Assembly: GCF_007164525.1 (NCBI RefSeq)
Contig: NZ_AP019791.1
Location: forward strand, 124,001 to 188,000
Source: Rubrobacter xylanophilus
GTDB taxonomy: Bacteria > Actinomycetota > Rubrobacteria > Rubrobacterales > Rubrobacteraceae
Reading direction: 5' to 3'
Length of the DNA: 64,000 nucleotides
Positions 17,615 to 20,163 of the stretch are shown one piece after another (within the stretch, counting starts at the first letter, position 1; every line of letters begins with the position of its first letter). Made by a program: the position numbers and the translations under genes. The notes below the pieces were generated by a model. That model had not been told where the DNA came from. It did no database searches and worked only from the letters and a program-made list of their open reading frames with translations.

Positions 17615-18319
17615 ATGCCGAGGCACGATACCGGCGGGTTCGCCGCCTCCAGCCCGCCGGAAGGGTTTGACCTGAAGGACTTCGAGGAGGCCGGGCTGAG
17701 GGTCGTGGAGCGCCGTTTCGCGCCCAAGGATCTCATCTTCGCTCCCGGGGACCCGGACGACCAGCTCTACTTTCTGCTCTCCGGGGTCGTGAGGCTCTAC
17801 AAGATCTACGGCGACTACAAGGAGGCCACAACGGCCCTGCTGAAGGATCGCGGAATCTTCGGCAAGCTCAGCCTGGTCGAGGGTCGCTGGCAGGACGTCT
17901 TCGCCGAAGCCGTCACCGAGGCCCGGGTCGCGGCCATCCAGAAGGCGGCCATCGAGCAGGTCGTGAAGACCAAGCCGGATTTCGCCCTCAAGCTCTTCTC
18001 TTCGCTCTCCGAGCGGCTGCGGCAGTCCGACGAGGTCATAGAGAGCCTGCTGCACCGGGAGGTCTCGGCTCGCCTCTCCACGCTGCTCTTGAACCTCGGA
18101 GAGCGCTTCGGCAGGGAGGAGAACGGCCGGGTGGTTATCCAGGTCAGGATGACGCACCAGGACCTGGCGAACATGATCGCCTCAACCCGGGAGGCGGTCT
18201 CGAAGGTGATGAGCGAGTTTCAGCGCGAGGGTTTCATCGAGACGCGCAACCGGAGGATCGTCCTCCTCGACACCGAAGCACTGGCGGAGCGGGCCGCCGG
18301 GCCGACCGGGCTGGTCTAG
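17615..18319 (+). CDS. Crp/Fnr family transcriptional regulator
   Basis: DNA-binding regulator of 234 aa with an N-terminal cyclic-nucleotide-binding-type beta barrel (about 25-140; FAPGDPDDQLYFLLSGVVRLYK) and a C-terminal winged helix (about 165-220; MTHQDLANMIASTREAVSKV), whose recognition helix TREAVSKVMSEF is typical of Crp. No Fnr-type cysteine cluster is present. The effector is unknown. Its stop codon shares CTAG with the convergent HD-GYP gene. Confidence 0.9.
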   Translation: MPRHDTGGFAASSPPEGFDLKDFEEAGLRVVERRFAPKDLIFAPGDPDDQLYFLLSGVVRLYKIYGDYKEATTALLKDRGIFGKLSLVEGRWQDVFAEAVTEARVAAIQKAAIEQVVKTKPDFALKLFSSLSERLRQSDEVIESLLHREVSARLSTLLLNLGERFGREENGRVVIQVRMTHQDLANMIASTREAVSKVMSEFQREGFIETRNRRIVLLDTEALAERAAGPTGLV

Positions 18320-19674
18320 CCCGCCTTCTCGTCCCTCCGAACCTCCGAGGGTTCGGGGAATGCGAAGCGATCGTCGGAGGCGGTGGCGTAGTTCCCGTCC
18401 TCTCTGTCCAGCACCCGCAGCAGCACCTTCACCACCTCGGGATCAAGGCCCTTCCCCGCCTCACTGGTGAGCCGGAAGCGTGCCTCCTGAGCCGGGAGGG
18501 CGGGGCTGTGCGGGCCGTCGAGGACCATCTCCGCATAGAGACCCGTCGCGGCGAGTATCCGGGCCTCCACCGGAAGCCACTCTCCCCGGATACGGTCCGG
18601 ATACCCCGAGCCGTCCACGCGCTCGTGGTGCCAGCGCACCCACTTCGCCGCCTCTTCGAGGCCCGGGATGCCGGAGATGAGGCGCTCCCCGTGCATCGGG
18701 TGCTGCTCCAGCTGCATCTTGCCGAGCGAGTTGAGCTTCCCGGGCGGGCTGAGGAGCACCTCGTCGGGGATGCCCGCGAGGCCCACGTTCTGCAGGAGGG
18801 CCGCGGTCTTGAGCGCCTGCACCTTCTCCTGCTCCAGCCCGAACTCCCGCGCCACGTCCTCCGTGTAGACCGCGGCCGCGGCCGCGTGTCGGTGGGTGTA
18901 GCCGTCCCTGAGCCCCACCGTCTCTATGAGGCGCGCGGCGAAGACCGCGTTCGCCTCGCGCAGCCCCCGATTCTCCTCCCGCAACTCCTCGCTCTCGCGC
19001 TGGCGCTCGTGGATCATGTGCAGCGTCATCAGCGCGGCGAACGCCCCTGAGAACAGCACGAGGGCCGTCGCCGGACCGAAGACGGCAACCGCATACGCCA
19101 CCCCGGCGGCGGTTATGACGGCCGCAATGTCCGAGGGAATGAGCGGTAGCATCGATTCACGCAGGGTATGCACGACGGGGGTTCCGTACTTGATGCGAGC
19201 GAGTAGTGAGTTGATGAGAGCATCCAGGGAGTAATACGCAGCACCCGCCGCGAAGATGCCGTACGCCAGCTCCGGTCCCGGCTTCGCGTCCATGACGGAC
19301 GAAGCCCCCGAGAGCCACAGCGCGAGGCCTGCCGCCACAAGTATGATGATATACGTAGCCGCTTCATAAAGCATCCGCAGGCGATCCCTGTAGAGGACGG
19401 CGGGGGCGGCCACCAGCAGGGCCCAGACGGGACCTGCGACGGCCAGAGCGGCGAGCGTAGCTACATCCCCGACCTCCACCTCGTTCCTGCCGAAGCTGAG
19501 CCTGAAACGCCGGGAAACGGCGCACATGATGGAGAGGACCGCGCTCATCCCGAGCGCGAACCAGCTGAAGCGCACGCCGAACAGGTAGATCCAACCCCCG
19601 AGCAGCGCAAACGCCAGCCCCGAGAGGCCGAAAATATAGAGCCGGGCGGCGTCAACCCGCAGCGAACCAGGCAT
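18316..19674 (-). CDS. membrane protein with a degenerate HD-GYP domain
   Basis: A 452-aa protein: about six or seven transmembrane helices (about 10-220), a coiled-coil linker (HERQRESEELREENRGLREA) and a C-terminal HD-GYP-type domain (about 245-440). HD-GYP enzymes hydrolyse c-di-GMP at a metal centre. The hallmark HHERVDGSGYPD, a conserved His (HRHAAAAA) and HPMHGE remain, but the HD pair of the usual LLHDIGKIGIP reads LLQNVGLAGIP, and the later metal-ligand Asp (normally ADVFDAL) reads ATGLYAEM. It is probably a non-catalytic sensor. ATG 19674 has GAGGGG seven bases upstream; TTG 19689 is the alternative. Three nine-codon ORFs lie upstream on the same strand. Confidence 0.8.
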   Translation of the reverse strand: MPGSLRVDAARLYIFGLSGLAFALLGGWIYLFGVRFSWFALGMSAVLSIMCAVSRRFRLSFGRNEVEVGDVATLAALAVAGPVWALLVAAPAVLYRDRLRMLYEAATYIIILVAAGLALWLSGASSVMDAKPGPELAYGIFAAGAAYYSLDALINSLLARIKYGTPVVHTLRESMLPLIPSDIAAVITAAGVAYAVAVFGPATALVLFSGAFAALMTLHMIHERQRESEELREENRGLREANAVFAARLIETVGLRDGYTHRHAAAAAVYTEDVAREFGLEQEKVQALKTAALLQNVGLAGIPDEVLLSPPGKLNSLGKMQLEQHPMHGERLISGIPGLEEAAKWVRWHHERVDGSGYPDRIRGEWLPVEARILAATGLYAEMVLDGPHSPALPAQEARFRLTSEAGKGLDPEVVKVLLRVLDREDGNYATASDDRFAFPEPSEVRRDEKAG

Positions 19675-19831: not shown

Positions 19832-19861
19832 CTACCAAATGTGGCTCTTGCCCTCGCGCAC
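19832..19861 (-). CDS. nine-codon ORF, copy 1 (MREGKSHIW)
   Basis: Mini-gene starting with GTG and reading V(M)-R-E-G-K-S-H-I-W-stop (TAG). A strong AAAGGAGGTGA element places GGAGG eight bases before the start. It is the copy nearest the HD-GYP-like gene (158 nt away, same strand). Compared with copies 2 and 3, the seven core codons EGKSHIW differ only at synonymous third positions, which suggests that the peptide is what is conserved. Function unknown: leader peptide, signalling peptide or modified-peptide precursor are options. Confidence 0.6.
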   Translation of the reverse strand: MREGKSHIW

Positions 19862-19923
19862 CTTTCTCACCTCCTTTCAGTGAGTTAATGAATTTGCTCT
19901 GTTTGTCTTGCTCGTGTTTTCTC

Positions 19924-19953
19924 TTACCAGATGTGGCTCTTGCCCTCGCGCAT
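19924..19953 (-). CDS. nine-codon ORF, copy 2 (MREGKSHIW)
   Basis: ATG start, peptide MREGKSHIW, stop TAA. GGAGG lies eight bases upstream of the ATG in the same GGAGGTGA context as copy 1. It differs from copy 1 in start codon (ATG for GTG), Ile codon (ATC for ATT) and stop codon (TAA for TAG), so the encoded peptide is identical. Confidence 0.6.
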   Translation of the reverse strand: MREGKSHIW

Positions 19954-20007
19954 CCTTCTCACCTCCTCTTATTAGGTCGGCGTTTATCTTGTCTGCTGCG
20001 TCCTCTC

Positions 20008-20037
20008 CTACCAAATATGGCTCTTGCCCTCGGTCAT
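20008..20037 (-). CDS. nine-codon ORF, copy 3 (MTEGKSHIW)
   Basis: ATG start, peptide MTEGKSHIW, stop TAG. GGAGGTGA is again upstream, with a longer spacing (12 bases). It differs in residue 2 (Thr for Arg) and uses CAT for His. It is the first copy a transcript from the 20,164 promoter would meet. Confidence 0.58.
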   Translation of the reverse strand: MTEGKSHIW

Positions 20038-20086
20038 GGCGGGTGTTCACCTCCTCTCGGCGTTCGGGAGCGGGGCATGGGAAGGC

Positions 20087-20106
20087 GCGGGCAGAGAAAA
20101 GCCCGC
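20087..20106. repeat. hairpin upstream of the nine-codon ORF array
   Basis: GCGGGC and GCCCGC form a 6-bp stem with an 8-base loop, located between the putative array promoter and the first ORF. No T-tract follows. Confidence 0.35.
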
Positions 20107-20163
20107 TGTGAAGGCGTTGAGATCTCTCCATCTTCCGGCCCCTCTCAGGTTGCTACAGCGGGT

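Follow-up and report, generated by a model that had tools for sequence, protein, structure and literature searches.

Among the described systems closest to the locus presented here, ComQXPA and agr have a peptide gene beside the gene of a membrane receptor, and signal and sensory domain covary while the output domain is conserved. In ComX-ComP, high variability of the signal and of the N-terminal membrane domain of the receptor contrasts with a conserved cytoplasmic domain (PMC4008528). RRNPP systems (Rap-Phr, PlcR-PapR, Rgg-SHP, AimR-AimP) likewise have very short, variable linear peptides beside a receptor gene, but differ from the locus presented here in that their peptides are released from propeptides that are secreted or exported by PptAB, and in that their receptors are cytosolic TPR proteins (PMC10075063). 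Genes of 5–7 codons with their own start are known from microcin C (mccA) and the biarylitides (bytA), and tiny ORFs bearing a Shine-Dalgarno (SD) sequence lie upstream of a gene in the TrpL, TnaC, and ErmCL leaders. The locus that we describe here resembles each of these systems in the other respects just named.

Mini-genes, promoters, and sensor gene in the window

The first-pass annotation of the window (the whole 64,000-nucleotide stretch of Rubrobacter xylanophilus DNA that was analysed) had marked three SD-bearing nine-codon genes encoding M(R/T)EGKSHIW on the minus strand, and these are present with start codons at 19861, 19953, and 20037. Mini-ORF 1 (20008..20037, ATG...TAG, MTEGKSHIW) is recognized from its in-frame SD-ATG-W-TAG layout and from homologous arrays, and is followed on the same strand by mini-ORF 2 (19924..19953, ATG...TAA, MREGKSHIW) and mini-ORF 3 (19832..19861, GTG...TAG, MREGKSHIW). 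Each consists of a start codon, eight further sense codons, and a stop, and each is preceded by the SD sequence GGAGGTGA on the minus strand, at 20047..20054, 19959..19966, and 19867..19874, respectively. A repeat finder grouped the three 48-nt units of the window into one direct-repeat family. Neither the EGKSHIW core nor a second tandem SD...TGGTAR array was found elsewhere in the complete 3.02 Mb source genome. The GAGA noted after each stop in the first-pass annotation is present in the copies of the window and absent from related arrays; therefore, we rejected it as a family feature and consider it incidental.

A putative promoter of the array, P1 (20164..20192, minus strand, TTTAGT-17-GATAAT), is a weak match, and a second, sigma-70-like promoter, P2 (19734..19762, minus strand, TGTACA-17-TAGAAT), lies downstream of the array and upstream of the sensor gene. 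Across loci, both P1-like matches (Wilcoxon p 2e-5) and P2-like matches at a similar position (Wilcoxon p 1e-7, nearly all loci) exceeded those in shuffled sequences. Given that P2 lies between array and gene, the array looks like a separate small transcript. No intrinsic terminator was found at the window locus, and very stable hairpins occur between array and gene at several loci. Long inverted repeats (e.g., TGTACAGAGCCT...AGGCTCTGTACA) span the sensor-gene promoter at L181, L057, L019, and L182, and could represent an operator or a terminator of the array transcript. In the window, an inverted repeat (CCCGCTG...CAGCGGG, then CTTTT; 20102-20162, minus strand) lies between P1 and mini-ORF 1 and is a possible attenuator or leader hairpin.

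The sensor gene (18316..19674, minus strand) encodes a 452-aa protein with an ECF S-component-like membrane domain (residues ~1-225; 19000..19674, minus strand), which is the part covarying with the peptide, and a degenerate HD-GYP domain (residues ~245-430; 18385..18942, minus strand). The N-terminal 225 residues matched RibU in a profile search (E 1.7e-4), a predicted model of moderate confidence (pLDDT 82.7, pTM 0.50) gave ThiT/RibU fold matches, and some relatives matched 5TM-5TMR_LYT (3.4e-6) or MASE9 (6e-4), which together suggest a ligand-binding type of domain, S-component-like in sequence and in modelled fold. The protein carries an HD_5 domain, and no kinase domain was found in it. 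Its HD motif reads QN and the final metal-ligand Asp is lost, while HHER-DGxGYP is kept. In almost all array-linked proteins the HD pair reads QN, QD, MD, or HN and the final ligand Asp is lost, so that, unlike in active HD-GYP phosphodiesterases, HD motif and metal ligands are not intact and c-di-GMP hydrolysis is unlikely. DvhD (PDB 9rbz), which aligns with this domain and has the HD-GYP fold with similarly altered metal-ligand motifs, was solved with c-di-GMP bound, making a binding role plausible by analogy for the array-linked proteins; in contrast to these, DvhD carries a PAS domain, and no peptide array was seen with it.

Recurrence and selection in Rubrobacteria

The array family was found via relatives of the sensor gene and not via the exact EGKSHIW core. 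Arrays of other tiny ORFs lie upstream of nearly all of these relatives, and 40 Rubrobacteria genomes yielded 36 loci with 85 mini-ORFs (1–5 per locus, 5–11 codons, mostly with a strong SD), a tally composed of 34 loci with 78 ORFs, L206 (two ORFs), L213 (three ORFs), and two copies that had been overlooked, one in L057 and the other in L021. Examples are MSEGKIHAW (four copies), MPKSNAW, MRFGSRRAW, and MFCRKGW (two copies each), MGRKAW (three), MSEGKARFW (three), MARKSW (two), MTDRWRTW, and MPRIASW (five). All of the arrays lie directly upstream of one membrane-protein family (ECF S-component-like domain plus degenerate HD-GYP), and none was found beside any other gene in the genomes scanned. 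The link that the first-pass annotation drew between the array and a neighbouring membrane protein whose HD-GYP domain is defunct is borne out by the comparison of loci. The mini-gene arrays recur as a family; EGKSHIW itself, on which that annotation had focused, is local to the window locus, and none of the 396 further genomes examined from the phylum has it.

Within the 600 nt that precede sensor genes with an array, a TGGTAR ending an in-frame mini-ORF occurred 70 times on the same strand by an automatic rule, plus twice on reading (L021 and L057), compared to two TGGTAR on the opposite strand, and the arrays are far beyond chance. Generic single-copy SD...TGGTAR matches are mostly due to chance, and therefore tandem and frame criteria were used. 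A tandem scan of a 397-genome sample of the phylum (~360 outside Rubrobacteria) gave only chance-like matches outside the sensor-linked family, those outside Rubrobacteria being judged by eye on the first 80 bases of each, and HD-GYP genes sampled from other phyla were without arrays. Two apparent orphan arrays at contig ends were rejected as orphans, given that the start of the same sensor protein follows each. Frame-broken copies are rare (copy 1 of L010, and L058, in which a decayed copy has TGG changed to CGG). With arrays recurring and such copies rare, neither of the outcomes that the first-pass annotation had named as refuting was observed.

Eight sensor relatives, in two or three sub-lineages, lack an array, and two further sensors without a visible array are at contig ends. 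Sensor paralogues without array include L071 (G000:C1:304151-305407), L027, L069, L061, L062, L067, and L068; most of them retain the canonical HDIG motif, a transporter-like gene lies immediately upstream, and they may either have lost their peptide partner or reflect an ancestral condition. At L189/L065 (G041:C4:809064-810373), two overlapping ORFs stand in place of a single sensor gene and the five MPRIASW-type mini-ORFs upstream are intact, reflecting either recent inactivation or an assembly error.

Every one of the 85 mini-ORFs ends in Trp-stop (TAG 44, TAA 40, TGA 1). Across the family, only a C-terminal [K/R/N/H]-x-W ahead of TAR is shared: the residue two before Trp is R, K, N, or H in nearly all mini-ORFs, and the residue before Trp is usually small. 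Between adjacent copies, pN/pS was 0.24 (74 changes at 185 silent sites and 56 at 589 replacement sites), and identity across codon 2 to the pre-Trp codon was 0.82, while the 30 nt after each stop had an identity of 0.38 between copies within arrays, compared to 0.38 in shuffled sequence. Given that the spacers are random while the ORFs are 82% identical, the copies are old, with only the ORFs conserved, and we rejected recent tandem duplication as the cause of the identical peptides. Peptides differed by a mean distance of 0.12 inside an array, compared to 0.81 for different arrays in one genome, which speaks against both a general ribosomal motif and recent duplication. Taken together, these sequence comparisons strongly support translation of the mini-ORFs and also the selection at the peptide level that the first-pass annotation had supposed from silent differences among three copies, and we conclude that the mini-ORFs are real genes with the peptide as their product.

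Stop codon usage is itself unusual, with TGA in 1 of 85 mini-ORFs compared to 28 of 86 neighbouring genes and 20 of 40 sensor genes (Fisher p ~1e-8, with 82 ORFs counted); this might reflect RF1-dependent termination or an avoidance of UGGUGA. The distance from start to start remains close to 85 nt (median 85 nt) despite the random spacer sequence. There are two double-length gaps between copies, of which the one in L057 hides the overlooked copy. Short ORFs can undergo reiterative translation (PMC6495379), and the strong SDs together with ORF lengths near the range described for it would fit a high peptide output.

Joint exchange of arrays and membrane domains

In genomes with two or three arrays, the arrays differ while the copies within each agree, suggesting that arrays are each paired with a sensor of their own. 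Peptide distance correlated with membrane-domain distance after correction for the HD domain (partial r 0.22; 4/3000 permutations), although partial Mantel tests can err on the optimistic side and the membrane domain in any case evolves faster; no correlation was seen with the HD domain once the membrane domain was removed. Many forks of the sensor tree, from which row L206 (a wrongly chosen ORF, a transporter) was left out, are open, and we therefore relied on pairwise and allelic comparisons.

Genomes G077 and G099 are ~91-92% identical apart from a swapped tract at one shared locus (L014/L053). There, flanks and HD half are 91-97% identical in DNA and the HD domains 97-98% identical, whereas a tract of ~0.8 kb, which begins at the first mini-ORF and runs through the membrane domain to its end, has ~45-60% identity, the membrane domains share 50% protein identity, and the peptides are different. 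The first mini-ORF of L053 appears to be a junction, with a start like that of L014 and an end that agrees with the HRACW of its own array. At another locus of the same two genomes, the peptide core is the same and the membrane domains are 91% identical. An independent second swap separates L213 from L025 (HD 95%, membrane 48%, MTFGQRHGW versus MKWRTKCW), and the window locus shows a milder split relative to a congener (membrane 66%, HD 86-87%). Where peptides match closely (L018/L054/L055 and L016/L017), there is no such split between membrane and HD identity. Array and membrane half have thus been exchanged jointly between related genomes. However, the array adjoins the 5' half of the gene, and a single recombination tract could include both even if they were not functionally coupled. 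At position 1 of G110:C66, a draft contig ends exactly at the array of the locus at which G077 and G099 have different alleles, which gives the impression that variants occur together at this point.

A candidate peptide-ligand system and its alternatives

On balance, we favour the view that array and adjacent gene form a two-part peptide-ligand/receptor unit, with leaderless mini-genes encoding the finished ligand, and consider it probable, if by no means secure. The peptide is most likely a ligand of the neighbouring sensor, a pairing suggested by coevolution, and among the three options raised in the first-pass annotation, a signal for that membrane protein is the best fit, given that the peptide covaries with the membrane domain. 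The array would be its own transcription unit, in which each mini-gene, with its near-perfect SD, would give a finished peptide of 5–11 residues without signal sequence or propeptide, and tandem copies would raise the peptide dose. The free C-terminal [K/R/N/H]-x-Trp may serve as a general recognition element, with the preceding residues providing specificity. The ligand would be sensed by the S-component-like membrane domain, which could pass the signal through a long helix to the catalytically degenerate HD-GYP domain; for the latter, binding of c-di-GMP or of a partner protein is more probable than c-di-GMP hydrolysis. Pherotype-like specificity groups would then arise as lineages exchange array and membrane half together. 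Peptide and sensor might meet outside the cell after export or inside it. S-component pockets open outward, which favours a peptide acting outside, but the peptides have no signal sequence and there is no constant exporter. Observations that count against the ligand model include the near-absence of TGA (1/85), which a pure ligand model leaves unexplained, the eight sensor relatives without arrays, and the lack of a dedicated exporter, protease, or modifying enzyme among the constant neighbours. The broader proposal of a new class of cell-cell or self signalling, in which leaderless mini-genes provide a Trp-ended pheromone for an ECF S-type receptor with a dead HD-GYP output and specificity groups arise by cassette swaps, we regard as evenly balanced.

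Another of the first-pass options, regulatory leader peptides, would have translation or Trp-stop pausing in the mini-ORFs control the downstream sensor gene in cis, as an attenuator or by termination arrest. The position of the arrays upstream of a gene, the strong hairpins after several of them, and the combination of conserved C-terminal residues near the peptidyl-transfer centre with near-exclusive TAG or TAA, which could fit RF1-dependent arrest, agree with this reading. However, it is weakened by the conserved promoter between array and gene at nearly all loci and by the covariation with the sensor membrane half, which it does not predict. In addition, arrays read by the same ribosomes in one genome have different peptides, yet the copies within each agree, and a lone Trp codon would sense Trp poorly. 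We therefore consider cis-acting leaders unlikely. An untranslated repeat, in which the SD-to-TGGTAR unit would be a DNA or RNA element bound by a protein, could account for the regular start-to-start spacing and the nearly constant TGGTAR, but reading frames of 5–11 codons connect start codon and Trp-stop, differences between copies are mostly silent, the TGGTAR layout is strand- and frame-specific, and there is no Rfam match, so that this reading is hardly credible.

Polymorphic matched pairs and multi-copy tiny precursors are also known from toxin/immunity or bacteriocin-like systems, and microcin C provides a directly encoded 7-residue peptide (PMC6495379). Here, a peptide, perhaps modified, would hit other cells, and the membrane protein would be the matching immunity; the architecture of the partner (sensor domain, long helix, HD-GYP) is instead that of signal transduction, no constant modification or export gene accompanies the arrays, and we judge such a pair to be rather improbable. 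No gene other than the sensor gene accompanies the arrays consistently, and no dedicated exporter, protease, or modifying enzyme, including P450, was found in such a position. This also bears on the remaining first-pass option, precursors of a very small modified peptide (RiPP) with maturation enzymes encoded elsewhere, for which no candidate enzyme emerged. Five-residue precursors are known in the biarylitides (MxYxH; PMC8708641) and an aromatic C-terminus could be cross-linked, but no P450 or other maturase is among the constant neighbours and only Trp is constant, whereas cross-linked cores keep the linked residues. RiPP precursors therefore seem very unlikely.

If the ligand/receptor reading is true, bacteria encode a finished peptide signal in genes of 5–11 codons, without the precursor and processing machinery that standard searches assume. 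Actinomycetota would have a polymorphic peptide-communication system, HD-GYP-type sensors would have a natural peptide ligand, and a class of real genes would have been missed by gene finders; propeptide searches such as RRNPP_detector begin at 10 residues. Thanks to the allelic swaps, specificity is open to immediate testing.

The first-pass annotation knew no described family with the EGKSHIW peptide, and indeed no known family fits, nor did we find a published description of Trp-ended mini-gene arrays in the open-licence literature. Leaders such as TrpL, TnaC, and ErmCL usually have one copy and a conserved sensing or arrest motif, whereas the arrays have many copies, locus-specific peptides, and an intervening promoter. 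Unlike the arrays, mccA and bytA are single genes in their clusters, with a dedicated enzyme (MccB; P450 BytO) and no receptor pairing: microcin C has an adjacent MccB adenylyltransferase and a C-terminal Asn, and biarylitides have an adjacent P450 and an MxYxH-type core, while the arrays have neither of these biarylitide features, end in Trp throughout, and have the sensor gene as sole constant neighbour. RRNPP propeptides are 10-100 aa long with a secretion signal and act on cytosolic TPR receptors of 250-500 aa; mini-ORFs of 5–11 residues have no room for a signal sequence, and their partner is an integral membrane protein with an HD domain. The array/sensor system thus lacks the defining features of ComQXPA, agr, and RRNPP, and we file it under none of them. 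Variants of ComQXPA and agr form separate communication groups, and the array/sensor swaps show the pattern of such specificity groups. Those systems, however, use one propeptide, a processing enzyme (ComQ, AgrB), and a histidine kinase with response regulator, mainly in Bacillota, whereas the arrays would provide finished peptides from tandem mini-genes, with no processing gene, to a candidate receptor composed of an ECF S-like domain and a degenerate HD-GYP domain in Actinomycetota.
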